Shown one piece after another: positions 43,614 through 61,266 of a stretch of 64,000 bases of DNA; position 1 is the stretch's first letter, and each line of letters starts with the position of its first letter. The notes below the pieces were generated by a model. That model did no database searches. It was not told where the DNA came from and saw nothing but the letters and a program-made list of their open reading frames with translations. The DNA comes from Candidatus Pantoea floridensis (GTDB lineage Bacteria; Pseudomonadota; Gammaproteobacteria; Enterobacterales; Enterobacteriaceae). Location of the stretch: NCBI RefSeq assembly GCF_900215435.1, contig NZ_OCMY01000001.1, positions 682,001 to 746,000 of the forward strand, written 5' to 3'. A program made the position numbers and the translations under genes.

Positions 43614-43624
43614 TTGTCCGTCGT

Positions 43625-44251: not shown

Positions 44252-45076
44252 TTTCGTCAGATGTCCTGGAAAATAGGGTTAAAAATCACGAACGTAACGC
44301 CGTACAGAGGCTGGCTAAGATAGCGGTTCAATACAGATGAATCTGTAGGAGATTGCTTATCCTGTTGCCAGTCAGTACGACTCGCCATTACATAGCGACG
44401 TAAATTACGGGGCTTTTTAATCCCAAGGTAAAAAAATAAACCCCAAGACCTTTCGCAACTTTTTCGGATAAAAATCGGCAATTAAACGGACATAACTAAA
44501 GCCACTCCAGGGTTATCTGCATTAGCTAAATCACTGTTTAGAAAAAGTATCTGTGAATGCCGATGGCAATTAAGCGGTAGCCTTGTGTGAGGAGGGTAAA
44601 ATCCATGCTTTCCTAAACGTCCGAGCACTTGATTCGCTAAGCGCTTGCACACTAACGTTATACTTTGCCGCTCATAATCGCTCTTTGCGCCAATGATTTT
44701 TTCAACAAATATATTACTGATTTGCAGAAGACTGTTTGAGATTACCTCTTTTCGAGCACAGAACAACGGATATGCCACAGGCAGTAACCATGGAGATGAA
44801 CGGCAGAATTATTGTTTTAAAACAATGAGTTAATTTTTACTGGGCGTTATTTCCCGCCAGTAAATTAGCGCTACATTTTTTGGAAAATTACTATATGGAT
44901 AATAAAAGCCCCGACGGAGAGCCGGGGCAAGAGGTAAATCGTTCTTTTTTATATTTATAGGCTTGTAGTTATCACCGGGATGGTAATTTTTGCTACGTGA
45001 TACAAGGTACGGTATTTTTTATAAAAATAATGTCAGCAAATGACGGTAGCTGTGTCAGAAAATACTCACTCCTGCT
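44252..45076. other. Long intergenic region between the EvgA-like gene and the T6SS operon
   Basis: About 825 bases. It contains the terminator of the T6SS operon at 44902-44928 and must contain the EvgA-like promoter. Two minus-strand frames (44257-44481, 44482-44778) lack ribosome-binding sites and protein-like composition and are not accepted. The region is AT-rich near 44800-45000. Nothing else is recognised. Confidence 0.5.
44902..44928 (-). terminator. Terminator of the T6SS operon
   Basis: On the minus strand GCCCCG (44928-44923) pairs with CGGGGC (44913-44908) around a nine-base loop, followed by TTTTATT. It lies about 150 bases beyond the last gene of the T6SS operon and is the only strong terminator between 61.8 and 44.9 kb on that strand. 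Confidence 0.78.
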
Positions 45077-45694
45077 TTATTCTTTTTCTTCTTCAATCCT
45101 TTTCTTGCTGAAAATAAAATGTTCAGCTTGCTGTTTTTCGTACTCCCAGTCGTGCATTGATAAACCAGCGAATTCAAAGCCAATCATATGGACATCGGGA
45201 CCGGCAATAGGTAACTGAAGATAATGATTGAGAATATAAAGTAAGGTATATCCTGAGGAGGCCATTTTACCCCCTGAAACATAGGGGATAAAATCCGTAC
45301 AGAAAACAGCGTCGAAGGGATCCAGGAATTTTACATTATCGACATTCACAAAATCATAATAATCAGAGAGAGCGAAGTATCGAAGGCGACCTTCTTCTCT
45401 ATTCAGAGGGCTGTGATGACCATGAAAAAGAGGTTGTGCGGAGAACTGACGACGAATAACCACCGTGTCTCCAGTATGTTGCGCCACTATTTCATGGTTA
45501 AAATAATTAAATACAATAAGCAGGTCCTGAGAACCGGTAACAATGTGTTCAGAACGTACCTTTGAAGAGTTAGCGATAACAAATATATTCTTATATTTTG
45601 GCACTACCTCCATCCAATCAAAGAAGTAATTTATTTTCTCCATAACACTTTTGCATTTAACAGGAGGTATGTTTTCTATGGTTTCTAATCTCAT
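45077..45694 (-). CDS. GT29 (sialyltransferase)-like protein at the end of the T6SS operon
   Basis: The 205-residue protein shows three motifs in the order and spacing of family 29 glycosyltransferases. An L-motif-like segment IFVIANSSKVRSEHIVTGSQ lies at residues 37-56 and is followed by VFNYFN. An S-motif-like segment MASSGYTLLYILNHYLQLPI lies at 144-163, followed by GFEF at 172-175. A VS-like His181...Glu186 (HDWEYE) comes near the end. Such enzymes use CMP-sugars. No signal peptide or membrane helix is seen, and it is shorter than most members. GGAAGGGGGG precedes the ATG, 17 bases after tssE. It could modify a secreted T6SS part or be an effector; no immunity gene is visible. Confidence 0.55.
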   Translation of the reverse strand: MRLETIENIPPVKCKSVMEKINYFFDWMEVVPKYKNIFVIANSSKVRSEHIVTGSQDLLIVFNYFNHEIVAQHTGDTVVIRRQFSAQPLFHGHHSPLNREEGRLRYFALSDYYDFVNVDNVKFLDPFDAVFCTDFIPYVSGGKMASSGYTLLYILNHYLQLPIAGPDVHMIGFEFAGLSMHDWEYEKQQAEHFIFSKKRIEEEKE

Positions 45695-45711
45695 TATTTA
45701 CCCCCCTTCCT

Positions 45712-46203
45712 TTAGACCAACTGTAAGTTAATGCTTTCCGTTTCAACTTCATAGCGAGCCCCTAAGCTTAAATCAAAGGGATGCGGTGACCATGCCACCA
45801 GTGCATGAATATTGAAACTGATTATCCCCTGCTTAATGGGAGAGCGACGCTCCCCATTCAGACTGACAATAATACTTTCCGGAATGAGCCGGGGTTCAAA
45901 ACGAATTAAAGCATCACGTATTAGATACTCGAGTCTCGTCCAGTTATGCGTATTGGTATAACTACCTACTTGAGGTGACACGCCGTAGTTAATGACCGAA
46001 CGTGCAACTTCACTATGTTTTGCAGGCTCGAGCTGAGGCTCAATATTTGCATTATTTAAAATTTCACTAATATTTTGCAGAATCAGCGTTTTCATCATCC
46101 GCTGATCGAAGTGAAATTTATCCCATGGCTCATCCACTCTTTTTGGCTCGTCATCGAGTAAACGCTCAAGCAGACAGGGTAAAAAGGGCTTTTTCTCTTT
46201 CAT
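45712..46203 (-). CDS. tssE: T6SS baseplate protein TssE
   Basis: TssE is the gp25-like wedge protein that starts sheath assembly. The 163-residue protein begins PFLPCLLERLLDDEPK, typical of TssE, and has a gp25-type core with SVINYGVSP, RLEYLIRDALIRFEPRL and a C-terminal beta segment (SFNIHALVAWSPHPFDLSLG). It follows tagJ by 15 bases. Its usual partners TssF and TssG are absent from the window. Confidence 0.88.
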   Translation of the reverse strand: MKEKKPFLPCLLERLLDDEPKRVDEPWDKFHFDQRMMKTLILQNISEILNNANIEPQLEPAKHSEVARSVINYGVSPQVGSYTNTHNWTRLEYLIRDALIRFEPRLIPESIIVSLNGERRSPIKQGIISFNIHALVAWSPHPFDLSLGARYEVETESINLQLV

Positions 46204-46218
46204 AAGATGACTGCCATA

Positions 46219-47016
46219 TTAAATGCTAATTTCGCCCGCTTCAAACAGTGAGCATTCACCACTACTGCTTACCCACATTTTACGGCCCTGCCCGATATAA
46301 CGGTCGCTTTCGCTTTCCTGCCATTCCGTGCGAGAGCCAGTCAGTAAACTCACGTCGCTTTCACTGTTAAGTGGATAGCGCGAAGGGATATAACCCTTAT
46401 GCGTTTGACCTTTTACCACAACTGTAGCTGGAGCCCAGATCAGATCGGTTAGGCTGGTAGGCTTCTCAACGTTGAGCACTTCAATGTCAGAGAACGGTAC
46501 CCAGCGATAGCCGCCAGCAAAGATGAACTCACACACTGGGCCCAGGCGGTCGTCACCATCGGCAATCCAATCAAATGTTTCTAATCCTTCACTTTTTCCT
46601 GACATGGCGGTAGCCGCTTCCAGCGCTCGGTGACGATACTCCTCACCCTTCGTGGCTTCTCCCTCGTGATAAAAGGCATTCGCTTTATTCAGCAGCTCAC
46701 ACCATTCAGGTAATGCATCCCCCAGATTGCCGGCCTCGCGTTGTCCTGCTAACACTAACTGACGCAAACGTTCACTGAGAATAAGATTTTTAAAAAGTTC
46801 ACACTGGCGTTGAGTATCGTCATCGGTCTTCTCTACGATATCAAGCTGGCGTAGTGCGCGATCCCAATCAGCCTGTAAGCAATAAAGTTTGAACAGCCTC
46901 ATGCGTAAATCACTGCTAGCTGGCTGTGATTTGACAGCAGCGACAGCCTGAGCAATGGCCTGAGGCAAACTATCAATGCCAGTAAATTCGTTATTAGTGT
47001 TAAAATTAATTTTCAT
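46219..47016 (-). CDS. tagJ: T6SS accessory protein TagJ (ImpE/SciE family)
   Basis: The 265-residue protein matches the ImpE family: an N-terminal helical repeat with LRMRLFKLYCLQADWDRALR, a linker, then a beta-rich C-terminal domain with GPVCEFIFAGGYRWVPFSDI, LTDLIWAPATVVVKG and GYIPSRYP. TagJ contacts the sheath protein TssB and modulates ClpV-dependent recycling in systems that have it. That is notable because no ClpV gene is visible nearby. Confidence 0.87.
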   Translation of the reverse strand: MKINFNTNNEFTGIDSLPQAIAQAVAAVKSQPASSDLRMRLFKLYCLQADWDRALRQLDIVEKTDDDTQRQCELFKNLILSERLRQLVLAGQREAGNLGDALPEWCELLNKANAFYHEGEATKGEEYRHRALEAATAMSGKSEGLETFDWIADGDDRLGPVCEFIFAGGYRWVPFSDIEVLNVEKPTSLTDLIWAPATVVVKGQTHKGYIPSRYPLNSESDVSLLTGSRTEWQESESDRYIGQGRKMWVSSSGECSLFEAGEISI

Positions 47017-47034: not shown

Positions 47035-47841
47035 CTACAAGTGGCTATCCAGCCCCATTTTATAAAGTTCGCGATACAGTAATTCTGAAACGACACGTTT
47101 TTCAATCTGCTTAAGATGTTCTGGTGCAATTTCTCGCAGTAGCTCAATCTTAATATCCTGCTCAGTTTCAAAAATATCATCGTGATCAATCATTAACTCT
47201 CTAAATACCCGCTCCATCATGACTTCTGCTTCGACGACACATTCGGAAACGGTCTTATTCTTAAGGCATTCGTTCACATTTAAGTTATCACTTAAACGCT
47301 CGCGCTTTGAATAGACATTCTTTTTCTCAACATCTCGCGGCGTGTGATGTTGCTCGCCCCATAAGAGATAATGCTTATATTCTTGCGTTAATGATTTTAG
47401 AGGATCAATTTCTTCAGCGTGATGGCTCTCTTGCTTTGCATCATCACCATAGGGCGTGTAATGGCCGCCGTGGTTGATCAGTAACTCTAGCTCAGGAAGA
47501 TCCCCCTCAGCCGGTAATAGGCTATTTGCCAGTTCATCTGCAGGTGGAGCAATGACCTTAAGCAGGTAATGCCCAATCTGTATTAGCATCCCTCCTCGTA
47601 GCAGGCGAGTTGTACCGTTTTCAAATGGCTGCCCGTCTATAAGGCAAACATAGTCATGGGCTTCAACACATAACATCAGTTGCTGCTGCTGAAGCCAGAA
47701 AATAACCTGATCTTCTTGTTCAACAGCTTGATCATTAAAGCCGCCTGTCGACGGGCTAAACCATACAGGGCTATCACGTTGATGGTGTTCATCTAACGTA
47801 ATATCATTATGCAGCTCCGGCCAGATGATCTGAATCTGCAT
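47035..47841 (-). CDS. T6SS-associated TagK-like protein with degenerate FHA region
   Basis: The 268-residue protein has an N-terminal FHA-like beta region (about residues 1-95) in which the usual GR and SxxH phosphothreonine motifs are not recognisable, ending in GGMLIQIGHYLLKVI. A His/Asp-rich linker follows, then an alpha-helical C-terminal part starting DPLKSLTQEYKHYLLWGE, which recalls the TagK domain of enterobacterial T6SS loci. It starts one base after the PAAR gene ends. The assignment to TagK is by recall, and the role is not known. Confidence 0.6.
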   Translation of the reverse strand: MQIQIIWPELHNDITLDEHHQRDSPVWFSPSTGGFNDQAVEQEDQVIFWLQQQQLMLCVEAHDYVCLIDGQPFENGTTRLLRGGMLIQIGHYLLKVIAPPADELANSLLPAEGDLPELELLINHGGHYTPYGDDAKQESHHAEEIDPLKSLTQEYKHYLLWGEQHHTPRDVEKKNVYSKRERLSDNLNVNECLKNKTVSECVVEAEVMMERVFRELMIDHDDIFETEQDIKIELLREIAPEHLKQIEKRVVSELLYRELYKMGLDSHL

Positions 47842-47842
47842 G

Positions 47843-48106
47843 TTAACCGCCGATCAAGACATTGCCTGAGCCACTCACAATCGTTGCTCCACAGGCTGTT
47901 GAGTCACTAATACGAGCCGCAGGTTGATTATTGATAAATACCGTACCAGACCCCGAAGCGACGACTGTTGAACCATCAATGCTACACACCGCATTACTTA
48001 TTCCGACAGCTGCAGCCGGCAAGCTATTTATCATCACATTCCCTGAACCACTAATAATGCTACCACCATGACTTATTGAGTCACTTATCCGAGCTGCTGG
48101 TTTCAT
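47843..48106 (-). CDS. PAAR-domain spike-tip protein
   Basis: The 87-residue protein is a stand-alone PAAR protein that caps the VgrG spike. Two similar halves are visible, AARISDSISHGGSIISGSGN and AARISDSTACGATIVSGSGN, with His and Cys residues placed to bind a metal at the tip. It has no C-terminal extension, so it carries no toxin domain itself. It lies between vgrG and the tagK-like gene. Confidence 0.9.
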   Translation of the reverse strand: MKPAARISDSISHGGSIISGSGNVMINSLPAAAVGISNAVCSIDGSTVVASGSGTVFINNQPAARISDSTACGATIVSGSGNVLIGG

Positions 48107-48184: not shown

Positions 48185-51181
48185 TTACGGCTCTGGCGTC
48201 TGCGAATCCGTCGGCGTCGGCGTTGGGGTTGGCATCGGCGTGTCCGTCGGCGGCGGCGTGTCTGTCGGCGGCGGCGTGTCCGTCGGCGGCGGCGTGTCCG
48301 TCGGCGGCGGCGTGTCCGTCGGCGGCGGCGTGTCCGTCGGCGGCGGCGTGTCCGTCGGCGGCGGCGTGTCCGTCGGCGGCGGCGTGTCCGTCGGCGGCGG
48401 CGTGTCCGTCGGCGGCGGCGTATCCGTCGGCTTCGGCGTATCCGTCGGCTTCGGCGTGTCCGTCGGCGGCGGCGTGTCCGTCGGCGGCGGCGTGTCCGTC
48501 GGCGGCGGCGTATCCGTCGGCGGCGGCGTGTCCGTTGGCTTCGGCGTGTCCGTCGGCTTCGGCGTATCCGTCGGCTTCGGCGTATCCGTCGGCGGCGGCG
48601 TGTCCGTTGGCGGCGGCGTAATCGGCGGCCGCGTAATCGGCGGCTCTGTGATCGGCGGCTGCGTAATCGGCGGCTGCGTGATTGGTGGATCAATGATTGG
48701 CGGTGGTACCGGCGGATCAATAACAGGCGGCCATACAGGCAAGACTGGCAGTGGAATAGGTAAAGCCATGCCACCCATGATTGCTTTCGGTGACATCAGC
48801 CCGCCTACACCTTTAAGCCCTGCTAATGCGCTCAGCCCTAATCCACCGCCAACGGCACCGGCGGCGGCGGCAATGCCTGCACCGGCACAACCCGCCCCAT
48901 CACCTGGGTTAATCTGAACGATGCCCCCTTCAATGACCACGCGCGATTTACCAATAATTTTGACGGTATCGCCCGACAGTATCAGCTCACCTAAAGTACC
49001 CACGCTGACTATTGCACCACCAAACAGCGTGGCGGCGCCCCCAACGGAGGTCATCTGCGCACCACCGACGTTAATCAACTGCGCACCGCCAACGTTGGTC
49101 AGGATCGCCCCGCCTACGTTGGTATTAATGGCTCCGCCTACGTTGGTGATGATGGCGCCTTTTACATAATTTTTGACTGTGCAGGCGACGTTCTTTTCAA
49201 CTGACCCGGTTATGTTGGTGATAACGGTGCCACCAATGTTGGTGTTAACGGCACCGCCAACATTGGTATTGTGCGCACCGCCAATATCCGTCTTAACTGC
49301 GCCGGCAACACTCGTTTTATGCATTCCTCCCACAATCATGTTGTAGCCAGAACCAATTTCCATGCTTGCCTGGCTACCGATCAATTTGGAGTAACTGCCC
49401 CCCACATTTTTGCTGTAATCGGCCCCAACGATGATGTCACGATTAGCGCCCACCTCAAGGTTGTAATTGGAACCGATAGCATAAGTGGCATTCGCACCTA
49501 CGTTCTTGGTGTAATCCGTTCCCACCACCAGAGTGCGATTCTTACCGACGCTAATATCAGAATTAACACCGATGGTTTGCGTTTCATCATTCTTGGTCAG
49601 GCGATCCATGTCGCGTTCCGCCTGTTCCCAGTACAATTCCTGGCCAGGCTTATCTTCGAAACGCACACCGTTGTAATTACTTTTACCACCACCAATAGTG
49701 CGGCTGATAAGCCCACTTTGTGTAGCATTTACCGGAAGATCCCAGGGCGGCATGGTGACGTTGTTATACAAGCTACCGGTGATCATTGGACGATCGGGAT
49801 CGCCATTGATAAAGTCCACCACCACTTCATGGCCGACGCGTGGAATATAAATACCACCGAAGCTATTACCTGCCCACGCCTGGCTAACGCGCAACCAGCA
49901 AGAGTCAGATTCACGGTTAATGCCGTAACGATCCCAGGTAAAACGCACTTTTACCCGGCCATATTCGTCGGTCCAGACTTCTTCACCTGGCGGTCCCACT
50001 ACAATCGCGTTTTGCGGACCATAAGTACGTGGCTTTGGAACTATCTGGGGATGACGATAGATTTTTGTCGTCGGCTGCACGGTAAATTTGCAGTGAATAC
50101 TGAACATATCTTTATTGGTGACTTCGTTGATCTCCTGGATGTCCAGTTCACTGGAGATCACCATATATTCGCGGTTGACTTTGTTGACCGGATAACCGAC
50201 CAGCTCAAAATGCGTTCCGCAAACAATCCCTCTTAACTCGCCACTCCCGACCGCGCGTGAGCCCTTTGATCCACGCTCTTCGGTACGAATACGCGCTAAC
50301 TGCTCACCAATAGCAGGTTGCTCGTAATCACCAGGCCAGTGGAATACCTCCATCTCATTGAAGCTGGTTTTTCTTGCTTTGACATCAATGGAAAGGATAT
50401 CGGCGCGCGACTTAGTGAAGTCATAATCGTTGGTTACCCAGCGACCGCTGGTTAACATCTCCTGATGTTCAAATACAGAGATATACTCGGCATCGGCTTT
50501 AGGATTTTCAGGCTGATAATCAATAACATGGTAAGCTTCACTTGGGCTGGCTTTGTGTGCACCAACGTGATCCACCAGGATCAACTTATGCTTTTGGTCC
50601 TGATGTTCGTAGAACCAATAGATCCCCCACTCTTCCATCAGACGCTCAATAAAATTGAAGTCTGTCTCGCCATACTGGACCTGATAGTCCATCGTCGGAT
50701 AACTGGTTGTCAGCCGCTTCTCATAAGAGAAGTGGTAGTCAGCCAGCACCTCATCGATAATATCGACCACTGATTTTTGTTGGAAAATTTTGTAGTCAGT
50801 GGTTAACGTGGTCAGCCATAGCCAGGGGCGGATAACAATCTCGAAAAGTGCCTGATTGGCATCGCGCCCTTTAAAGCGCGCTTTTTCAACCAATCCTGAA
50901 ATCTCGCGTTGACCGCGTCCAATCCCGATGAGGTGATCGAGACCGTTTCCATCCAGTTCGATGAAGACGGTCATCTCTTTGCCAATTAACGCCTTGATAT
51001 CCACATTCGAGGCAGATTGCCATGGAATAAGCGGATTTGCGGGCGTTTTTACCAGCAAGGTATAGCTGTATAAAGTGGAGAAGGTTTCTTCCCCCTTTAT
51101 TCTATTCAGTACCAGAGCAGGTTCACCCAGTAACATGGGCATCGCTGGACTGCTTAGTGTTATCGTCCTAGACATAGTCAT
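48185..51181 (-). CDS. vgrG: VgrG spike protein with a long Pro-Thr-Asp repeat tail
   Basis: The 998-residue protein forms the trimeric T6SS spike. Residues 1 to about 400 are the gp27-like part (TYSYTLLVKT, SLYNNVTMPPW later), then the gp5 OB segment with VGPPGEEVWTDEYGRVKVRF. A beta-helix region (about 500-770) has repeated NVGGA units. Then a PPIT-type repeat (about 825-854), 21 hexapeptides of type PTDTP-P/K (about 855-980) and a short PTPTPTD tail follow. No catalytic effector domain is visible. The tail is encoded by near-identical 18-base repeats. This length and tail are unusual for VgrG. Confidence 0.9.
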   Translation of the reverse strand: MTMSRTITLSSPAMPMLLGEPALVLNRIKGEETFSTLYSYTLLVKTPANPLIPWQSASNVDIKALIGKEMTVFIELDGNGLDHLIGIGRGQREISGLVEKARFKGRDANQALFEIVIRPWLWLTTLTTDYKIFQQKSVVDIIDEVLADYHFSYEKRLTTSYPTMDYQVQYGETDFNFIERLMEEWGIYWFYEHQDQKHKLILVDHVGAHKASPSEAYHVIDYQPENPKADAEYISVFEHQEMLTSGRWVTNDYDFTKSRADILSIDVKARKTSFNEMEVFHWPGDYEQPAIGEQLARIRTEERGSKGSRAVGSGELRGIVCGTHFELVGYPVNKVNREYMVISSELDIQEINEVTNKDMFSIHCKFTVQPTTKIYRHPQIVPKPRTYGPQNAIVVGPPGEEVWTDEYGRVKVRFTWDRYGINRESDSCWLRVSQAWAGNSFGGIYIPRVGHEVVVDFINGDPDRPMITGSLYNNVTMPPWDLPVNATQSGLISRTIGGGKSNYNGVRFEDKPGQELYWEQAERDMDRLTKNDETQTIGVNSDISVGKNRTLVVGTDYTKNVGANATYAIGSNYNLEVGANRDIIVGADYSKNVGGSYSKLIGSQASMEIGSGYNMIVGGMHKTSVAGAVKTDIGGAHNTNVGGAVNTNIGGTVITNITGSVEKNVACTVKNYVKGAIITNVGGAINTNVGGAILTNVGGAQLINVGGAQMTSVGGAATLFGGAIVSVGTLGELILSGDTVKIIGKSRVVIEGGIVQINPGDGAGCAGAGIAAAAGAVGGGLGLSALAGLKGVGGLMSPKAIMGGMALPIPLPVLPVWPPVIDPPVPPPIIDPPITQPPITQPPITEPPITRPPITPPPTDTPPPTDTPKPTDTPKPTDTPKPTDTPPPTDTPPPTDTPPPTDTPPPTDTPKPTDTPKPTDTPPPTDTPPPTDTPPPTDTPPPTDTPPPTDTPPPTDTPPPTDTPPPTDTPPPTDTPPPTDTPMPTPTPTPTDSQTPEP
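48240..48617 (-). repeat. 21 tandem 18-base repeats inside vgrG
   Basis: The sequence GTGTCCGTCGGCGGCGGC is repeated 21 times over 378 bases, with a few variants (TTC for GGC, GTA for GTG, GTT for GTC). The variants change Pro to Lys in some units or are silent. It encodes 21 PTDTP-P/K hexapeptides in the minus-strand reading frame. A shorter 15-base repeat (PPIT units) follows to about 48690. Very low divergence between copies suggests recent expansion by slippage or conversion. Other frames stay open by chance. Confidence 0.95.
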
Positions 51182-51921: not shown

Positions 51922-54900
51922 TCATCCCGGGCAGCGGAATCCGCGCAACATGCCCTGCAGATTCTGATTGCCATTACCCAGCCCACCAATTTCCAGCTCT
52001 ACTGGCTTGCCACCCAGTGACCAGCGATAAATTCGACTGTCTGCACCCTGGCTCGTTACGCGTTCGGCGCTGTCCAGCCAATGCATAACCGACCATGCAC
52101 CGTGGAATGTCAGATCTGGCAGTGCCGATGATGGGAGCCTCTGGCCGGTCATCGTAACGGAAGAGGTCAATCCACCTGATGGCCAGTGAAACGCCATCGG
52201 CATGACCGGGCCATGTGAGTAACGCAGCGTCTCTCCGCCAACGCTCAGCATCAGTTGCGCTATGTCCGGAGAGAGGTAGTGCACGCGGGTAGACAAATTC
52301 AATGACACTTTGCGTCCATCCGCGTCAAAGAATGCATCACGGACGGCGGCAGCTTGCTGGAAGAAGGAGAGTCCTTCACCGCCGCCATTGCCTTTATAGC
52401 GCCATGGGTAAGTTGATGTATCAACCTTGTCGGCCATGTTCTGTTTGAACCAGCTATCAACCACACCATCCACTGCAAAGAAGCGCTCAAAATCATTGAG
52501 TGATACCTCTTGCTGGCTTTTAGCAAAGGGATAGCGTCCTTGCAGCGTTTTACGACAAACCTGGCCAATGCCATTATCAATGGCTGTAACACTCAGCTTT
52601 ACAATGCTCTTTTGGATGCTTTCATTGGAACGTCCCAGCAGAGGCATCAAAATCCCCTTCACTGGCTCAGGCCACGTCCGCGATTCCGCCGCCAGGCGGG
52701 AACTATCCATTCCCATAACCGGGATGTCACCCTCATCAAGCGCACTGCTGTAAACCACATAGCGGGTATACTGATCGGTGAGCAGATTCATCAGCCGGTT
52801 AAGCCCAACGGTTTGGTTCGGGTTATATCCCGTGCCGTCTTGATCGCCTTTCACGAAAAGTCGTAGTGAACTGAACGGAAAATCAACATATTGATGAATA
52901 AGCCGTTGTTCACGGAAATCGACACTGTCTTTTAATCGCGTAGCTTGTTGTACCAGTCGGCCGGTTCTCAGCTCAGTCTGTAAAGCTGTTTGCAGCGTTT
53001 TATCCTTGGTTTCCGCCAGAGTCGTCTCACTGACGGCACGTTCCAGCAAACCGCGCAGTGGCGAATTATCTGCGACCAGGGTTCTTAACAGCGATACATC
53101 CATACTGAGATTCTGCTGTCCCCCCATCGGTATCAGACGAATACTCGAGAGGAATTGCTGCCACTGATGCGCATATTCCTGCAGATAAAGAATCAGTACC
53201 TCATCACGCAGCGTGAGAGGATTTACCACGCGCCCCGTCTTTCCCAGTACCCAACTATCCTCACGCTGTAAGCCGATCAACGACGTAGCGAGCTGCTTCT
53301 TTACCAGGTTTCGCCACCCGTCACGGGTGAAAATGCCGGGTACACCCTCAGGCTGATTTTCGATAGCATTTTGCTTAAAAATCATCGGCGCCTGAGGGTC
53401 AACCATCGCCTGCAGGGTGACACTTGGCGGTGCTACCAGCTGCAGTTTCTGCTTTAAATGCTGCCAAATTCTGGTGGTTTGCGGGATCTGCACCAGCATA
53501 TCCCTGGCGCGCTTAACCAGCGGTTGATCGATTGGCGATGATTTTTCTCGCCATCCTTTCGAGGAGAAAAGAGCATTCAGATGACTGTCAAACGTCTCCT
53601 GTTCACCATAAGCATCGATCATGCCTGAGGCTTTCCATTGCTGGTTGATCTGGGCAATCAGGAAGCCGGCATCGGCATCTCCCTCACCATTCAGCATGAG
53701 GTAAAGCTTCAGCGCATCCCACGCAGCAAGTGGATCATTATCGACTACGGCTTTGTTCAGAGAGATGGCTGCCTGCAACTGCAATTTTGGCAGCAACGCA
53801 TTCTGTAAAAAGAAGGTGTAGAGTTTGTCCGCACGACGTTCAACGGTGGCAGGTGTGTAAAGACCATAGCGCCAGTTCAGCGGAGGATTACTGATATCCA
53901 GCCCCAAATACTGCTTCAATGCCAACGTGCTATACAGGACGCCCGGTAACAGCTGCTGTTCAGGATGATCAACATATTCAACAACTTTTTCAGTCAGTTG
54001 AGTCGTACGAACACCAATAGTCGCCAGATAATCGTCATTCAGGTGGAAACTGGTAACAATTCCCCATATCAGCCAGACAGCGAGCATCGTTGCCGCAAGA
54101 TGGCCTGCGAAGTTCTGCAAGCGATCGCGCGTACGCATGCGCAGGCTGGAACTGACTAAATCACGATCGGCACTGATCACATCACTGAAAAGCTGACGCA
54201 GGAAGTAATGTTTTCCCCAGGGAGAGTTATCGATAACTCCGCCCTCTGCTTGTTGAAGACCATATGATGCTGCTGTTTCAGGATATTGATGTTCCACAAC
54301 ATTACGCCAGCGCTGAACAACCGTGTTGTTGTTGAGCAACCCCTTTTCGGCTGGCTGACAGCTACTCATAAAGTAGATGCCACGCAATGTGGTATTGAAC
54401 TGTGTTTCGTCATAGCGCGATGACAGGAAAATATGCTGCAGCATTTCGGTCACGCCCTGCGCTAATAAACGAAAATCCTGCGGTACGGCATACATCTGTT
54501 TGCGATCGGTGACGTCATATTCTTCCAGCTGACGCTGGCAAAGCGTACTACCAAGACGGCTTTCCAACTGAGCCAGCGTTTCGCTGATCTGCTTACCCAG
54601 TTCGGCTCCGCTGTCGTGTGATTGACGTTCAAAGGGAAGCGTTACACCAAGAACCTGTTCACGCTCAATCGCTGTGAGATTACGGAAATAGGCGCTAAAA
54701 CCGGTCAACATATCCATTCGGGTGATATTGACGTATACCGGAAAACGTAATCCCAGAGTTTCTCGCGCCTCGCTGAGCCTTGAGCGTAATGCCGCGGCGA
54801 TACCGAGGCGCTCAGACTGAGTACGGTGCAAAATATCTTCAACCGAGAGCGTCACAACCACGCCATGAATACTGTGTTTAGGACGGTACTTTTTCAATGC

Positions 54901-55689
54901 GCCTAAGATGCCACGCCACTCCTGCTGAACATGCTCTGCTTCCTGCAGATATTTACCTGAGGTGTCCAGGAAAAGCGCGTCATTGGTGTAAAGGCACTCA
55001 ATATTATCGGTAGAAGGATTTTCACGGTCCTGACGATTCAGCTGTTCTGGCAATGGGAAATCGAGTCCCGATGAGAACAGCATGGTGGTTTTACCGGCGT
55101 TTTTAGGTCCAATTATCATGAACCACGGTAAGCGTGTTTTACTGTCGCTGAAGCTGAAAAAACGGCGCCACAATGGCAAGGCACGATGAACACGCTGGGT
55201 ATGTTTCACACCCGCTGCAATGATCTGCGTGATAGCGCTCATGTCTGGTTTAGCTTCTACCGCAGCTGACCTTTTACTCATCAGTGAGTTAAGTAACGCC
55301 GGGTTTACAGCCAGCGCCTGCAACAGCCGCCAAAGTCCATACAGCCCCGTCAATACCAGCAGCACAGCAATGACTGCACCGCGGTTTATATTGCTTTTGA
55401 GCGGATAGTTTTCCCCAATCATGATATGGGGACCCAGAGTCCAAACCATCGCCATCGCAAAGAGCGAGAGATCTAAAAACAGTGGCAGACGATTCCAGCG
55501 CAGAAGCAGCATCACAAACAGCATCACCAACATAATGATGCGGTTTTCAGCACCCGCCCAAGGGGTAGCCTCACCAAAACCAAACCAGGGGCCGAGGTAC
55601 CAAACCGCCGCCGCCAGCACGCAATAAACAGCGATCAGAGAAAAGCGTCTTAATCCTGTTCCTGAGAAAATTCGATTAAACACTGACAT
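51922..55689 (-). CDS. tssM: T6SS membrane complex protein TssM (IcmF)
   Basis: TssM spans the inner membrane and reaches through the periplasm to TssJ. The 1255-residue protein has three N-terminal membrane helices (about residues 18-34, 50-64 and 103-120), a cytoplasmic domain with Walker A GPKNAGKTT (194-202), a fourth helix near 540, then a long periplasmic region ending in the C-terminal beta domain. The Walker A is intact. It lies 10 bases after tssL. Confidence 0.94.
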   Translation of the reverse strand: MSVFNRIFSGTGLRRFSLIAVYCVLAAAVWYLGPWFGFGEATPWAGAENRIIMLVMLFVMLLLRWNRLPLFLDLSLFAMAMVWTLGPHIMIGENYPLKSNINRGAVIAVLLVLTGLYGLWRLLQALAVNPALLNSLMSKRSAAVEAKPDMSAITQIIAAGVKHTQRVHRALPLWRRFFSFSDSKTRLPWFMIIGPKNAGKTTMLFSSGLDFPLPEQLNRQDRENPSTDNIECLYTNDALFLDTSGKYLQEAEHVQQEWRGILGALKKYRPKHSIHGVVVTLSVEDILHRTQSERLGIAAALRSRLSEARETLGLRFPVYVNITRMDMLTGFSAYFRNLTAIEREQVLGVTLPFERQSHDSGAELGKQISETLAQLESRLGSTLCQRQLEEYDVTDRKQMYAVPQDFRLLAQGVTEMLQHIFLSSRYDETQFNTTLRGIYFMSSCQPAEKGLLNNNTVVQRWRNVVEHQYPETAASYGLQQAEGGVIDNSPWGKHYFLRQLFSDVISADRDLVSSSLRMRTRDRLQNFAGHLAATMLAVWLIWGIVTSFHLNDDYLATIGVRTTQLTEKVVEYVDHPEQQLLPGVLYSTLALKQYLGLDISNPPLNWRYGLYTPATVERRADKLYTFFLQNALLPKLQLQAAISLNKAVVDNDPLAAWDALKLYLMLNGEGDADAGFLIAQINQQWKASGMIDAYGEQETFDSHLNALFSSKGWREKSSPIDQPLVKRARDMLVQIPQTTRIWQHLKQKLQLVAPPSVTLQAMVDPQAPMIFKQNAIENQPEGVPGIFTRDGWRNLVKKQLATSLIGLQREDSWVLGKTGRVVNPLTLRDEVLILYLQEYAHQWQQFLSSIRLIPMGGQQNLSMDVSLLRTLVADNSPLRGLLERAVSETTLAETKDKTLQTALQTELRTGRLVQQATRLKDSVDFREQRLIHQYVDFPFSSLRLFVKGDQDGTGYNPNQTVGLNRLMNLLTDQYTRYVVYSSALDEGDIPVMGMDSSRLAAESRTWPEPVKGILMPLLGRSNESIQKSIVKLSVTAIDNGIGQVCRKTLQGRYPFAKSQQEVSLNDFERFFAVDGVVDSWFKQNMADKVDTSTYPWRYKGNGGGEGLSFFQQAAAVRDAFFDADGRKVSLNLSTRVHYLSPDIAQLMLSVGGETLRYSHGPVMPMAFHWPSGGLTSSVTMTGQRLPSSALPDLTFHGAWSVMHWLDSAERVTSQGADSRIYRWSLGGKPVELEIGGLGNGNQNLQGMLRGFRCPG

Positions 55690-55699
55690 GTTTCATCCA

Positions 55700-57061
55700 T
55701 TAATAATTAACTAATATTTCGACGCGACGGTTTTGTGCTCGTCCCTCAGGCGTGGCGTTACTGCCAACGGGCTGACTATCCCCTTTTCCTTCAACTCGAA
55801 TATTTTCAGCAGGGATGCCGGCCTGTTGCAGCCATTGCGCCACACTGGCAGCGCGTTTTTCCGAGAGGACCTGATTACTCGGAAGGCCAGGCTTATTGAT
55901 GGGTTGCGAGTCGGTGAAACCGACAATCAGCGTCTTGCCATTTACGCGATGGATCTCTTCAGCCACACGCTTGAGGATACTTTGCATGCTTTCCAGCACA
56001 TCAAATGTGCCGGTTTTGAACATGCCGTCACCGCGGAATATCACCAGGCTGCGCTCAGGCGTTTCGTCCACAGTAACCAGCTTGCGGGCGATCTCTTCCT
56101 TAAGTAATTCGGCTAACCTTAGCTTTCCAACTGCCGGTTCTGGAGGCAGGGTTATGGGTGAACGTGCAGAAGCATCAATGCGAGTGACGATATCGCTAAG
56201 CGGGATCATCAAGTGATATTTGGCATAGATAAAACTACCGGCGATCAATACTCCGGCGACAAGCATGGAGATACGGACAGGAACATAAAACTGATAGCGT
56301 TTTTTGCCACTGCGCACCGGAACGCCTTGCGGTGACAGAGCCATGCCTCGGTCTTCCCGAGAGCTTTGTAATAGTGTCAATAGACGTTGGCGAATGCGAT
56401 TAAGTTGGCGCTCACCGTTTTCAATAATGCTATAACGCCCCTCGAAGCCAAGGCCGAGAATAATCAACTGAACTTCAAGAACGTCGGCATATTCCTGAGG
56501 TGACATGGACAAGCGGCCCACCAGCAGGAAGAATTTTATGCCGCCATCGTTATCGCCTTCAAAGTGATTAAGCAGGTTGCCTTGCGACCAGTTGACATCT
56601 TTACTCCACGAACGCGCCAGAACGGCTTCGTCCAGTGCGGTACACATGCAATAGCGCACAATGGCCATCTTCTTCCAGGAAATATCTGCCTCATCGCAGA
56701 CGACGCTGAAGAGCGTGATCTCTTTTTTCAGCGTCTCCTTCAGCAAATTAGCTTCATCTTTCCCGTTCACTTTTTCGGGCATTTCGCTTAACGCACGCAG
56801 TAATGGCTGCGCCGCTTCAAGTAATGGCAGGGACGCATTTTTAACGCGATTAACCCGCTCATGAATGCTTTCACTTCGCAGACGACTGCTGTCATAACGT
56901 TCATTTATTGCGTCATGATTTATCGCCGGATTGGTCTTGAAATCTGAAAAGCTGGTCGATTCATCGAGCAGGAAATGTCCCAACTCCTGGCCGTTACTAT
57001 CGGTATCCGCCTGGTTATCAAAAAACGTGCTGTTCAGGTTAAAATTGTCATGCTCGCTCAT
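55700..57061 (-). CDS. tssL: T6SS membrane protein TssL with C-terminal OmpA-like domain
   Basis: The 453-residue protein combines the TssL/DotU cytoplasmic domain (about 70-250), a membrane helix near 265-285 (RISMLVAGVLIAGSFIYAKY) and a C-terminal OmpA-like peptidoglycan-binding domain (FRGDGMFKTG, VGFTDSQPINKP, SEKRAASVAQWL, NRRVEI). This extended form anchors the complex to the wall. The start overlaps the tssK stop by one base (TAATG), so they are translationally coupled. Confidence 0.93.
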   Translation of the reverse strand: MSEHDNFNLNSTFFDNQADTDSNGQELGHFLLDESTSFSDFKTNPAINHDAINERYDSSRLRSESIHERVNRVKNASLPLLEAAQPLLRALSEMPEKVNGKDEANLLKETLKKEITLFSVVCDEADISWKKMAIVRYCMCTALDEAVLARSWSKDVNWSQGNLLNHFEGDNDGGIKFFLLVGRLSMSPQEYADVLEVQLIILGLGFEGRYSIIENGERQLNRIRQRLLTLLQSSREDRGMALSPQGVPVRSGKKRYQFYVPVRISMLVAGVLIAGSFIYAKYHLMIPLSDIVTRIDASARSPITLPPEPAVGKLRLAELLKEEIARKLVTVDETPERSLVIFRGDGMFKTGTFDVLESMQSILKRVAEEIHRVNGKTLIVGFTDSQPINKPGLPSNQVLSEKRAASVAQWLQQAGIPAENIRVEGKGDSQPVGSNATPEGRAQNRRVEILVNY

Positions 57062-58407
57062 TAGTCACGAATCCCCCACAGTTCCATTTTCAGGTCAGGG
57101 AAATCACCGGCAATGTGCAATGCAATAGCGCCGCTACTGGCAATGCGATCCCAGAATGGACCACTCTTAGCCAGTTCAAAGTAAACGTGGCCGGCGCTGT
57201 AGGGAATCTGACGCGGAGGGACAGGCAGAGGATGGATTTCCAGGCCAGGCAAGTGCGAACGTACCAGTTCATGCAATTGCTGCGGTGCACTGAATTTTGC
57301 CTGAGCCAGGTATTGATGCTGCAGAATATCCATAGGTAGCTGCGCAGATACCGCGACAACCAGATTACTGAAACCGCGCAGTTCATTTGGCAGCACATTC
57401 GCCGACCAGACACCGTTACCACGTGATTCCAGCGTGATCATTTGGCCCGCACGCACCAGAATCTGGTTGAGCTGTTCATGAATATCATCAACCAGGGGGC
57501 GGATAGAGGCATAAAGGCTAGCGTGCTTGTAGCCTGGCGCCGATCGTGGTCTGCGTGTTTTCACCCGTATAAAGGTAGAAAGTTCGCCCGCAAATTTGGC
57601 CAGTTCCTGGTAGAGCATGATGGGTGGTAACTCAGGAATGGTGCGCAGATGGTCGAGCAATGGCTCATATTTATTAAAGATTTGCAGTAAAAGATAATCA
57701 ACGATTTCTGCACTCGCACTCGCTTTACCGTCACTGTTTGATAATCGCGTTGCCAACATTCCCGCACGCATTTTTACCAGACCGTTCAGATGCGTCAGCC
57801 ATTCGCTGAGCAGCTGGTTCGCGCCATAACCTGTCACGGGTGGGATGTAATCATCAACATGCAGTAATACGCTGCCATCAGGCTGGATAGCGCGTACGCG
57901 CGTCAGCGGTAATCCAATCCACGACTCCGTCATTTCGCTTTCTGACACCAAACGGAGGCGCAACTGCGCCAGCTGCACAGGTTTAGGTCCCTGGTGAATG
58001 GCATTGGTATCATTCAGCTCAGCTTCATTGCCGTAAAAACGCGCCAGAGAACCGCTATCGTACTCATCGAAAATAGTTTCATTACTATTATCCAGGCGCA
58101 GCGGCACAGCCAAATAAATCATCTTGCCAAGATGTTCAGGTGCGATAGTTAATGGCTGCGGCAGATCGGCATGTCCTGGAATATCAAATGGCGTACCATC
58201 CGGCAGAACACCGCTCGCAGCGCGGAGAACCAGTTTTCCATATGAAAGCGCTTCACGATCAATTTCATAAGCTGAAAAACCCCAAAAAAAGGGCGTAAGG
58301 GTGAGAGCTCGCTTATGAGAGTAATATTCCAGGTAACGCTCTTGCTGTTGAAAGAGTTGAGGGCGCAGAAAAAGACCTTCACTCCAGACGACTTTTTTTG
58401 TTCTCAT
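57061..58407 (-). CDS. tssK: T6SS baseplate protein TssK
   Basis: TssK trimers connect the baseplate to the TssJLM complex. The 448-residue protein begins with the typical VVWSEGLFLRPQLFQQQERY, then shows the LPLTRVRAIQPDGSVLLHVD region, the HLNGLVKMRAGMLATRLSN segment and a C-terminal domain ending GDFPDLKMELWGIRD. It follows tssJ by two bases. It is complete and ordinary in length. Confidence 0.93.
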   Translation of the reverse strand: MRTKKVVWSEGLFLRPQLFQQQERYLEYYSHKRALTLTPFFWGFSAYEIDREALSYGKLVLRAASGVLPDGTPFDIPGHADLPQPLTIAPEHLGKMIYLAVPLRLDNSNETIFDEYDSGSLARFYGNEAELNDTNAIHQGPKPVQLAQLRLRLVSESEMTESWIGLPLTRVRAIQPDGSVLLHVDDYIPPVTGYGANQLLSEWLTHLNGLVKMRAGMLATRLSNSDGKASASAEIVDYLLLQIFNKYEPLLDHLRTIPELPPIMLYQELAKFAGELSTFIRVKTRRPRSAPGYKHASLYASIRPLVDDIHEQLNQILVRAGQMITLESRGNGVWSANVLPNELRGFSNLVVAVSAQLPMDILQHQYLAQAKFSAPQQLHELVRSHLPGLEIHPLPVPPRQIPYSAGHVYFELAKSGPFWDRIASSGAIALHIAGDFPDLKMELWGIRD

Positions 58408-58409
58408 AA

Positions 58410-58970
58410 TTAATTTACCGGTTTAACTGAAGTTGTCAGATTATTCATTCTGACTTGAATATGAGGCTGCCAAACTTTGTCTCGTTTAAAATAACGTTGA
58501 AACCAACTGCGCTTGGGTTTCTCAGGAATAATATAAAGCACCTTCCATTCCGAGTCGGATATGTCTCGATAGGCCGTTATCACACCCAGAGCAGTAACAT
58601 TTTTAGGCGTCTCAATAACTTTATCTTTTTTCTCACCGGGGACAATCATTGTGTCGTAAATAAGCGAAATCTGACTAGTAAGTTCAGGATCCCTACTCTC
58701 AGTAAGAGTAATGAAATCACTGGCCATAAATGCTTGCTGTTGATTCAATTGATACACCGTAATACGAAGAGGGTTTGCTTCTCCTGCGTCATTTTTATTT
58801 ATAGTGTTGGATGCATCAAAAGTAATTTTTACGGATTCCGTATGTGCACTCGAATCATTATTCGGCGTGCTTTGGCAAGACGTTAGCATACTGGTCATCG
58901 ATAAAATGATTAACATCGTTAGCCAACGCCGATGGGAGGCGGCAGCATGATGCATTATTTTAGTAATCAT
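58410..58970 (-). CDS. tssJ: T6SS outer-membrane lipoprotein TssJ
   Basis: The 186-residue precursor has a long basic start, a hydrophobic signal and the lipobox MLTSC with Cys32 as the lipidation site. The mature beta-sandwich carries PLRITVYQLNQQQAFMASDF, typical of TssJ. GGAGGA precedes the ATG. The C-terminus has a basic segment (KPKRSWFQRYFKRDK) that is a little longer than in many TssJ proteins. It anchors TssM to the outer membrane. Confidence 0.91.
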   Translation of the reverse strand: MITKIMHHAAASHRRWLTMLIILSMTSMLTSCQSTPNNDSSAHTESVKITFDASNTINKNDAGEANPLRITVYQLNQQQAFMASDFITLTESRDPELTSQISLIYDTMIVPGEKKDKVIETPKNVTALGVITAYRDISDSEWKVLYIIPEKPKRSWFQRYFKRDKVWQPHIQVRMNNLTTSVKPVN

Positions 58971-59026
58971 TACGTCCTCCTTTAATATGAATAAGTAAAA
59001 GTAAAATTAAGGCGAGCGTTCCTTAA

Positions 59027-59051
59027 CCCTGCCACGCTTAATGTGGCAGGG
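59027..59051 (-). terminator. Hairpin after hcp, possible attenuator
   Basis: CCCTGCCAC and GTGGCAGGG form a nine-base stem (59027-59035 and 59043-59051) 19 bases beyond the hcp stop. On the minus strand it is followed by TTAAGG, not a T-run. It may reduce read-through into tssJ and so keep Hcp more abundant than the membrane proteins. Confidence 0.5.
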
Positions 59052-59069
59052 CTTGTAACAAGAACTTAA

Positions 59070-59555
59070 TTAGCTATGCTGGTTTGCTTTTACATCATAA
59101 GTCGCAGAGATAACACCAGACTTATGACCTTCAGCATTCTGCATTACATAATCTTCAGTTACTTTGGTGAAGGAGAAGCTAACTTCTTCACGTGGACGAG
59201 TTTCGTCTTTATGAGAGCCACCCATTCCAACTTTAGTAATGATTACGTCAGTGAACTTCAGAATCATGTATTCCAGTGGATCGCCACCAGCTTTACGCAC
59301 GGTGAAAGCGATATTTTTAATATGCTTACCAGTCAGACAGTAGCTCAACAGGTTTGGACTTGCTTTGTCGGTATAATGCTGGAACACGAAGTCAGCAACA
59401 GTAGCACGACCAGAACCACCGCCTGAACCGCTGTGCATATTCTTAGGCTGCAATACGTCCCATTTCCATTCCAGAACCTGGATCTCGTTTTTATGAGTAG
59501 CATCTAAAGATTCACCTTCGATGCCATCAATTTTAATAAACATATCTTGGGCCAT
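59070..59555 (-). CDS. hcp: T6SS tube protein Hcp
   Basis: Hcp hexamers stack into the inner tube. The 161-residue protein has the family pattern MAQDMFIKIDGIEGESLDAT, SGSGGGSGRATVADFVFQHY, AFTVRKAGGDPLEYMILKF, and an EEVSFSFTKVTEDY segment near the end. There is no C-terminal toxin extension. It is separated from tssC by 187 bases and from tssJ by about 100, unusually loose for this operon, with hairpins on both sides. Confidence 0.95.
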   Translation of the reverse strand: MAQDMFIKIDGIEGESLDATHKNEIQVLEWKWDVLQPKNMHSGSGGGSGRATVADFVFQHYTDKASPNLLSYCLTGKHIKNIAFTVRKAGGDPLEYMILKFTDVIITKVGMGGSHKDETRPREEVSFSFTKVTEDYVMQNAEGHKSGVISATYDVKANQHS

Positions 59556-59588
59556 AATTTCCTCTCATGGACTAGTTGTGTATAGATT

Positions 59589-59609
59589 ATTCAATGCGAT
59601 GCATTGAAT
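59589..59609 (-). other. Hairpin in the tssC-hcp spacer
   Basis: ATTCAATGC (59589-59597) and GCATTGAAT (59601-59609) form a perfect nine-base inverted repeat with a three-base loop. No T-run follows on the minus strand. It may be an mRNA processing or stabilising element, or a binding site near an hcp promoter. Confidence 0.45.
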
Positions 59610-59742
59610 GATACGAGACTACTGCACTGAATATATCCAGCACGTATTCTCAATTAATTCAAAGTAATTACATTTACTTTGAGTCTTAAATATTCGATTC
59701 AGACATTGTCCTTAATGTCCATTGTCAAACCGAATAGTTAAA

Positions 59743-61248
59743 TCAGGCTCCGCCTTTAACAGAAGGAAGTTTGGCTACCATACGCAGAGATACGGTTAAA
59801 CCCTCCAACTGGAAATGCGGGCGCAGGAAGAATTTGGCTTGGTAATAGCCAGGGTTGCCTTCAACATCTTCAACAATAACTTCAGCAGCAGCCAGTGGAC
59901 GGCGAGCTTTAATTTCAATTGAGGAGTTAGACGGATCACCATCGACGTAATTCATTACCCAGTCGTTTAACCAGCGCTGCATATCGTCGCGTTCTTTAAA
60001 CGTACCGATTTTGTCACGCACAATACATTTCAAATAGTGTGCAAAACGTGAACAAGCGAACAGGTAAGGTAAACGCGCTGAAAGCGTGGCGTTAGCTGTT
60101 GCGTCAGCATCATAATACTCTGCTGGCTTCTGCAGTGATTGGGCGCCAATGAAGGCGGCAAAATCGGTATTTTTACGATGCACCAGCGGGATAAAACCGT
60201 TTTTAGCCAGTTCAGATTCACGACGGTCTGAGATAGCGATTTCGGTCGGACATTTCATGTCTACGCCGCCATCATCGGTCGGGAAGGTATGGCACGGTAA
60301 ACCTTCAACTACACCGCCACTCTCAACACCACGAATCATGGTGCACCAGCCGTTCTCTTTAAAGGAACGGTTGATATTTACCGCCATCGCATAGGCAGCA
60401 TTCGACCAGACATACTTGCTGTGGTTTTCGCCGTCGGTGTTCTCTTCGAAATGGAAGGCTTCAACCGGGTTGGTAACGGTGCCATATGGCAGACGAGCCA
60501 GGAAGCGCGGCATTGCCAGGCCAATATAACGAGAATCTTCAGACTGACGCAGACTGTTCCAGGCCGCGTATTCCAGATTCTGAGTAAAGATTTTAGTTAG
60601 ATCGCGTGGATTAGAAAGTTCCTGCCAGGAATCCATCTGCAATACGTTCGGCGATGCACCTGCAATGAATGGCATGTGTGCAGAAGCGGCCACTTTACCA
60701 ATCGATGACAGCAGATCCACGTCGGCAGCAGAGTGATCGAAGAAATAGTCCGCCACCATACAGCCGTATGGCTCACCGCCGAGCTGGCCATACTCTTCTT
60801 CATAGATCTTTTTGAAGAGTGGGCTTTGATCCCATGATGTCCCTTTATAGCGTCGCATACTGCGGCGTAATTCTTCTTTGGATACATCCATAAAGCGCAG
60901 CTTTAACTTTTCATCGGTCTCGGTATTGGTTACCAAGTGATGCAGACCTCGCCAGGCACTTTCCAACGACTGAAACTCTTCATGGTGAAGAACCAGGTTA
61001 ATTTGCTCTGACAGCTTGCGATCAATTTCGGCAATAATTGAGGCGATACTTTTATAAGCATCGTCAGATACCGTCACCGAGTTTACCAAGGCCTGTTCAG
61101 CCAGCGTTCTCACTGCGCCTTCAACTGCAGCTTTGGTCTGTTCGGATTTAACTTTAAACTCTTTATTCAGCAAAGAACTAAATGCACTTGCCTGAGAAGC
61201 GGCTTGTGCTGCCGCATTTTGTTTTTCCATCATTCGTGAAGTTGACAT
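59743..61248 (-). CDS. tssC: T6SS sheath protein TssC
   Basis: TssC is the large subunit of the contractile sheath. From ATG 61248 (five bases after AAGGAG; ATG 61251 is the alternative) the protein has 501 residues. Family blocks include FQSLESAWRGLHHLVTNTET, YGCMVADYFFDHSAADVDLL and RFAHYLKCIVRDKIGTFKER. A C-terminal GYYQAKFFLRPHFQLEGLTV also fits. It pairs with TssB encoded just upstream, 15-18 bases away. Confidence 0.94.
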   Translation of the reverse strand: MSTSRMMEKQNAAAQAASQASAFSSLLNKEFKVKSEQTKAAVEGAVRTLAEQALVNSVTVSDDAYKSIASIIAEIDRKLSEQINLVLHHEEFQSLESAWRGLHHLVTNTETDEKLKLRFMDVSKEELRRSMRRYKGTSWDQSPLFKKIYEEEYGQLGGEPYGCMVADYFFDHSAADVDLLSSIGKVAASAHMPFIAGASPNVLQMDSWQELSNPRDLTKIFTQNLEYAAWNSLRQSEDSRYIGLAMPRFLARLPYGTVTNPVEAFHFEENTDGENHSKYVWSNAAYAMAVNINRSFKENGWCTMIRGVESGGVVEGLPCHTFPTDDGGVDMKCPTEIAISDRRESELAKNGFIPLVHRKNTDFAAFIGAQSLQKPAEYYDADATANATLSARLPYLFACSRFAHYLKCIVRDKIGTFKERDDMQRWLNDWVMNYVDGDPSNSSIEIKARRPLAAAEVIVEDVEGNPGYYQAKFFLRPHFQLEGLTVSLRMVAKLPSVKGGA

Positions 61249-61266
61249 CATGTCTCCTTATTTACT

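Follow-up and report, generated by a model that had tools for sequence, protein, structure and literature searches.

The window analysed here, a stretch of 64,000 nucleotides of Candidatus Pantoea floridensis (contig NZ_OCMY01000001.1, positions 682,001 to 746,000), carries a type VI secretion system (T6SS) operon whose final gene encodes a remote relative of the GT29 glycosyltransferases. The same cluster encodes a GT60-type transferase and a VgrG spike protein with a mucin-like, Pro/Thr-rich tail, and GT60 genes are linked with Pro/Thr-rich proteins in T6SS clusters and on plasmids. The tip of the T6SS spike is probably decorated with sugars. We see about an even chance that the GT29-like enzyme adds a further sugar to an O-glycan that the GT60 protein would start on the tail of the operon's own VgrG.

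The GT29-like protein

45077..45694, minus strand: GT29-like gene, 205 amino acids (aa), final gene of the T6SS operon (open reading frame list, translation)

A preliminary description of this DNA had reported an open reading frame (ORF) of 205 residues at 45077..45694 with a GT29-like product. The ORF was confirmed and lies on the minus strand, the description having named no strand; the plus-strand frame at 45077-45694 is interrupted by stops. The residues singled out in the description (NSS 42-44, SSGYTLLYIL 146-155, GFEF 172-175, H181, and E186) are placed correctly in the translation, which contains the motifs ANS 41-43, DLLIVFN 57-63, D76, SSGY 146-149, GFEF 172-175, and HDWEYE 181-186. 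The matched residues presumably correspond to the L-motif, S-motif, and VS motif (H-x4-E) of the family.

The protein had no significant match in Pfam, NCBIfam, PHROGs, or PADLOC, and none by sequence in the PDB. A profile search against PF00777, the check named in the preliminary description, gave no match at E <= 10 for the window protein (P0001) or six relatives, and PF00777 matched nothing in the window's own genome. A WDR5 profile match (E 0.21), homing-endonuclease fusion matches (E 0.26 and 0.03), and a ribosomal protein match (E 1) were rejected as chance.

Two relatives of P0001, with 98% and 57% identity, were found in a protein database, and a second protein database search added five more, giving an alignment of 8 rows (A3). 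All 8 rows share A41-N42-S43, D57-L58, F62-N63, D76, R82-Q83, S146, G148-Y149, G172-F173, F175, H181-D182-W183, and E186. PSTGY stands in P0004, P0006, and P0008 where the window protein has SSGY. The family was compared by hhalign with 19 proteins from a bacterial GT29 search, 15 of which carry PF00777, and scored 33.6 (P 3.6e-4) and 30.6 (P 7.4e-4); against a 13-row GT29 subset, the scores were 29.4 and 27.5. Controls were lower, the best of 399 column shuffles scoring 21.5 / 22.7 and the best of 16 unrelated real families 18.4. The probability that hhalign itself reported for the GT29 match was only 12-37%. In the alignment of the family with GT29, N42, N63, G148, G172, H181, and E186 are invariant in 21/21 rows, and D57, D76, and S146 are kept in at least 90%. 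The motifs of the ORF exceed chance, because four of them (ANS, SxG, GFxF, and HDWxxE) are conserved in relatives at 28-30% identity and the GT29 profile match lies above all controls.

Bacterial GT29 proteins of PF00777 (e.g. P0009 of Magnetococcus sp. PR-3) have the same order of motifs, namely GN/NS, D..xxxN, P-S/T-x-G, GF-D/E-F, and HD-x3-E, and a similar length (175-205 aa in 13 aligned rows). The window protein differs from them in its lack of a PF00777 match, low identity (11-16%), ANS in place of VGN, FN in place of RMN at N63, and a shorter loop ahead of the final His. By these sequence comparisons, the 205-aa protein is a remote relative of GT29 that lies outside PF00777. The GT29-like assignment of the preliminary description thus stands as remote homology, carried by profile-profile comparison and shared motifs, and not as membership of PF00777.

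The VgrG tail and its link to GT60

48188..48688, minus strand: mucin-like C-terminal tail of VgrG, residues 832-998 (by composition), the proposed acceptor
L053:11450-12790, plus strand: GT60-type N-acetylglucosamine (GlcNAc) transferase, 446 aa (PF11397, 264 bits, cut-off 21, E 2.8e-78)
L053:16109-16846, plus strand: GT25 protein (PF01755, E 3e-7 over 36 residues)

Together with the GT29-like gene, the GT60 and GT25 genes, which lie past the window edge (locus L053), make three glycosyltransferase-type genes in one T6SS cluster. The 167-residue VgrG tail consists chiefly of (PPPTDT)n and contains 75 Pro, 52 Thr, and 1 Ser. A Pro/Thr score was defined as the lesser of Pro and Thr+Ser in the best 40-residue window, and proteins scoring at least 10 were called Pro/Thr-rich. 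Among 30 proteins of the cluster, VgrG scores 15 and all others 6 or less. In the fetched flanks of the clusters compared below, at least one of 25 OmpA-like ORFs scores 10, and matches to the other cluster families score at most 7.

Of the 295 family genomes searched, 23 carry PF11397; none of 14 well-known control genomes does. Two more carriers, G025 and G038, belong to the genus of the window, so that 25 genomes could be compared. The DNA beside PF11397 matches the OmpA-like protein of the cluster in 25/25 genomes and TssA in 24/25, the last being cut by a contig end. The orthologous cluster VgrG was found in all 25; its tail is Pro/Thr-rich in 23, and the other two run into contig ends. 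The repeats of these tails differ (PTETPTETP, PTPTPT, PPPTDT, EPTETP, TTPEP). Of the 57 other VgrGs listed from the same genomes and from ten PF11397-free genus relatives, 43 were scored; none reached 10, and the maximum was 7. In G038 (L067:8028-9388), two ORFs in different frames match GT60, and the gene is apparently split or shortened in the assembly. G054, a genus relative with a 91% complete assembly, has the TssE end of the cluster and no PF11397 match.

All three family genomes with the GT29-like gene fall among the 23 carriers of PF11397 (hypergeometric 4.2e-4; 5.4e-3 without the window's own genome). This test takes both draws of 295 genomes as identical, since their handles and counts agree.

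The linkage between GT60 and the tails within one T6SS lineage could be explained by descent alone; hence, settings outside that lineage matter. Eight plasmid loci with a GT60 relative were scored, and 5 have a clear Pro/Thr-rich neighbour. In two betaproteobacterial plasmid T6SS clusters, the VgrGs end in PPPPSSE or EPSTEEP repeats. A Klebsiella aerogenes plasmid (L200:18693-21044) has a PF11397 gene that closely follows the gene of a beta/gamma-crystallin-like protein containing a PTPTPT linker; fimbrial genes and no T6SS genes were matched at that locus. On an Azospirillum thermophilum plasmid (L205:10007-15234), the PF11397 gene adjoins a contractile injection system whose sheath gene, like the gene preceding it, contains PTPTPT runs. 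On a Phyllobacterium zundukense plasmid (L209:3110-10927), the GT60 relative stands behind a 2173-aa repeats-in-toxin (RTX) protein with PTPEPTPQYTPS Pro/Thr repeats, near type I secretion genes. The three remaining plasmids are less clear. A Cupriavidus plasmid has a T6SS cluster in which the recorded VgrG frame is interrupted, and adjacent frames contain Pro/Thr-rich stretches. On a Granulicella plasmid, no clear Pro/Thr-rich partner was found among the 6 of 17 neighbouring coding sequences scored, none exceeding 7. An unannotated Methylobacterium plasmid gave no clear case among ORFs of at least 300 codons, two at 10-11 being judged shadow ORFs. Stop-to-stop ORFs score 9-11 by chance in GC-rich records; therefore, annotated genes were relied on there. 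GT60 relatives also occur at three loci in large phages, namely Xanthomonas phage XacN1 (L203:5998-7371) and two Stenotrophomonas phages; at the one locus examined, no Pro/Thr-rich protein lies within 6 kb. The Klebsiella pair of PF11397 and crystallin-like proteins is a minimal enzyme-substrate candidate.

Organization of the cluster and distribution of the GT29-like gene

45695..45711, minus strand: 17-nt gap between tssE and the GT29-like gene, carrying the Shine-Dalgarno-like AAAGGAAGGGGGG
44908..44928, minus strand: intrinsic-terminator-like hairpin of 8 pairs (7 G-C), then TTTTATTATC, closing the operon (sequence)
45712..46203, minus strand: TssE (PF04965)
46219..47016, minus strand: ImpE/TagJ (PF07024)
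47035..47841, minus strand: TagK-domain protein (NF033419 of NCBIfam, 61.7 bits, cut-off 40)
47843..48106, minus strand: PAAR spike tip (PF05488)
48185..51181, minus strand: VgrG, 998 aa (PF05954, PF04717, PF22178)
51922..61794, minus strand: remaining T6SS operon, TssM, TssL, TssK, TssJ, Hcp, TssC, and TssB (Pfam)
61874..63981, minus strand: chaperone-usher fimbrial subunit and usher, inside the T6SS cluster (PF00577, PF00419)

The operon runs in the order TssB, TssC, Hcp, TssJ, TssK, TssL, TssM, unknown gene, VgrG, PAAR, TagK, ImpE/TagJ, TssE, and GT29-like, with the fimbrial subunit and usher ahead of TssB. Past the window edge, a fimbrial chaperone, a fimbrial subunit, and a ClpV-type AAA protein are followed by a divergent arm in the order TssF-TssG-TssA-fimbrial adhesin-GT60-DotU-like-OmpA-DcrB-LuxR-GT25. 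The chaperone, subunit, and TssG were named there by eye and by their place in the cluster comparison, and the other genes by Pfam. Fimbrial genes thus sit between ClpV and TssB (L053:1659-3076 and 61874-63981), and a fimbrial adhesin-like gene adjoins GT60. The cluster order, fimbrial genes included, is kept in G025, Morganella, and Phaseolibacter (blastp). GT25 occupies the DcrB end in 4 of 25 clusters (those of G153, G251, G338, and the window's own genome, G000); the contig of G110 ends there. Past GT25, a 148-aa ORF (L053:17503-17949) shows a likeness to the N-terminus of VgrG (match to TIGR01646 under the cut-off).

The preliminary description had also placed the GT29-like gene in the T6SS operon, with a strong ribosome-binding site, ahead of the operon terminator and with no immunity gene after it. 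These points agree with our analysis. The gene follows tssE at 17 nt; the opening letters of AAAGGAAGGGGGG are part of the tssE stop codon, and this strong Shine-Dalgarno-like stretch precedes the ATG. The hairpin lies 3' of the gene (44928-44908, minus strand), and nothing immunity-like was seen downstream among ORFs of at least 80 aa. The terminator is followed by a 98-aa ORF with a GTG start, whose status is doubtful, and then by a gene pair (39984-44251) for a response regulator of the LuxR type and a hybrid sensor kinase; in G251, G102, G323, and G213, a LuxR-like gene and a protein of approximately 950-1020 aa likewise come after TssE. Three genus relatives share the gene order of the window, and in them the T6SS genes end with TssE.

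The G+C content of the GT29-like gene is 0.38, compared with 0.506 for the window, which suggests import. The gene was found in 1 of 61 genus genomes, the window's own, and by profile search in 3 of 295 family genomes, namely the window's own, Morganella morganii Mm1 (G153), and Phaseolibacter flectens ATCC 12775 (G171). In a sample of 394 genomes of the order, the window's own gene was the sole convincing match. A 38-residue match in G157 (E 0.006; family search) and short matches in G468, G555, and G556 (E 0.001-0.006, two with internal stops) were rejected as chance. A contig scan with the single protein found no relative, and a scan with the A3 profile found those of Phaseolibacter and Morganella. 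No relative was found in viral contigs with A3 or in plasmids and phages with the single protein.

One of the 6 genomes from the Morganella Mm1 genus carries the gene; G338 of that genus has the GT60 cluster and GT25 and lacks the GT29-like gene. For Phaseolibacter, the distribution rests on one genome. In both G153 and G171, the gene lies elsewhere in the genome, unlinked to the T6SS cluster, and these unlinked relatives bear an N-terminal extension. In Phaseolibacter flectens (L006:6959-11208), its neighbours are the gene of a 640-aa pectate lyase (PF00544) on one side and a phage tail-fibre assembly gene on the other; judged by eye, the lyase has a long N-terminal part resembling a harpin. 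A GT29-like gene at the matching place in other clusters was sought and rejected: no flank ORF of at least 90 aa was better than E 1.1 with the A3 profile, the TssE end being visible in 13 of 24 other clusters and the DcrB end in 24, with the contig of G110 stopping at DcrB.

Proposed function and alternatives

The following mechanism is proposed on the genes, motifs, cluster, tail, and linkage described above, from which we infer that the tail is glycosylated and at which sites, in what order the enzymes act, and which donor sugar the GT29-like protein uses. The GT60-type GlcNAc-transferase would start an O-glycan on threonines of the VgrG tail, GT25 could extend it, and the GT29-like enzyme, presumably cytosolic, would add a further, probably terminal, sugar that is CMP-activated (CMP, cytidine monophosphate) and acidic. 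The glycan would be built before the spike is loaded and fired. The order GT60, GT25, GT29-like follows what these families do elsewhere. GT29-type enzymes can take CMP-Kdo (Kdo, 3-deoxy-D-manno-octulosonic acid) besides CMP-sialic acid; bacteria that make a lipopolysaccharide (LPS) core already have CMP-Kdo, which would make sialic-acid synthesis dispensable. Structure prediction from three sequences was of no use (predicted local distance difference test, pLDDT, 33). In a further structure model of the GT29-like protein, helices begin at residue 15 and strands at residue 36; a membrane anchor would find little space there, in keeping with a cytosolic enzyme that modifies VgrG before loading.

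GT60 polypeptide alpha-GlcNAc-transferases also act on trypanosome mucins. The cluster's 446-aa protein resembles the known GT60 systems in its PF11397 match and in the Pro/Thr-rich, mucin-like composition of its supposed acceptor. GT60 enzymes of Dictyostelium, as described in passages of one report, initiate mucin-type O-glycosylation in the Golgi (PMC3188802). Unlike these, the window's enzyme is bacterial, T6SS-encoded, and presumably cytosolic, with a putative donor and acceptor. Chaperone-usher fimbrial genes, as in the window cluster, are included in T6SS-C of Enterobacter cancerogenus and in the Citrobacter rodentium T6SS according to passages of PMC10797944, a likeness drawn from description; those passages mention no Pro/Thr-rich VgrG tail. 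Passages of PMC10763514 describe 'evolved' VgrGs with C-terminal effector extensions. The window VgrG likewise extends past the gp5-like spike, but with low-complexity Pro/Thr repeats and not a folded enzyme domain. In the main texts of PMC10797944, PMC4256274, and PMC10763514, no word begins with 'glycosyl'. A survey of Morganella T6SSs has one 'glycosyltransferase' in its effector/immunity table and describes proteins of this kind, together with two others, as 'frequently encountered', in passages that give no further detail (PMC13129497). Among the matches listed in a literature search that mostly left subscription journals outside its coverage, no title or abstract opening described a glycosylated VgrG or a mucin-like spike.

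The preliminary description had offered two functions, glycosylation of a secreted component or a glycosyltransferase-fold effector. Its interpretation as a whole is partly supported. The first function, as glycosylation of VgrG, is preferred. The second, in which the protein is delivered to eukaryotic or bacterial cells through either this T6SS or some other system, is unlikely. The position of the gene at the end of a T6SS operon would suit an effector, and cargo may be encoded near this place in G311, where a 1410-aa PAAR-bearing ORF lies on the opposite strand a few ORFs past TssE. The low G+C content, the N-terminal extension of the unlinked relatives, and the pectate lyase and phage tail-fibre neighbours in Phaseolibacter also point this way, and the lack of an immunity gene would follow from a eukaryotic target. 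However, the 205 aa match no known toxin, PAAR, Hcp, or VgrG domain. Moreover, all three family carriers own the GT60 cluster, which an effector would not need, and the protein has glycosyltransferase-type partners in its own cluster.

We regard as equally doubtful a recently imported transferase for a surface glycan (LPS, capsule, or fimbria) that is co-transcribed with the T6SS by happenstance. Its low G+C content, narrow spread among the genus and family genomes, unlinked position in two relatives, and the fimbrial genes within the cluster are consistent with such an origin. Against it stand the co-occurrence with the GT60 cluster and the 17-nt spacing from tssE with a strong ribosome-binding site of its own; furthermore, inspection by eye, without systematic annotation, of the ORF lists for the window and the adjoining 20 kb showed no polysaccharide operon. 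A GT29-like scaffold with another chemistry, such as a pyrophosphokinase-like or non-catalytic role, is quite improbable, since the His and Glu of H-x4-E and the S and G of S-x-G are kept in 8/8 family members, and His, Glu, and Gly in 21/21 rows with GT29.

Returning to glycosylation of the spike, a broader proposal has in our view a roughly equal chance of being right or wrong. The T6SS class marked by PF11397, present in the 23 family genomes and also in Burkholderiaceae, would fire a spike bearing long mucin-like arms whose O-glycans are attached in the cytosol by a dedicated GT60-type enzyme, with GT25 and GT29-like proteins varying the chain by strain. PF11397 proteins would then be general O-glycosyltransferases for the Pro/Thr repeats of injection machines and secreted proteins. 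If this is true, bacterial PF11397 proteins gain a concrete substrate, and a small O-glycosylation system becomes usable in glycoengineering. The tip of a bacterial contractile weapon would be a glycoprotein of mucin-like build, which raises the question of why a spike needs glycosylated bristles, be it for passage through mucus or capsule, holding of cargo, camouflage, or adhesion.
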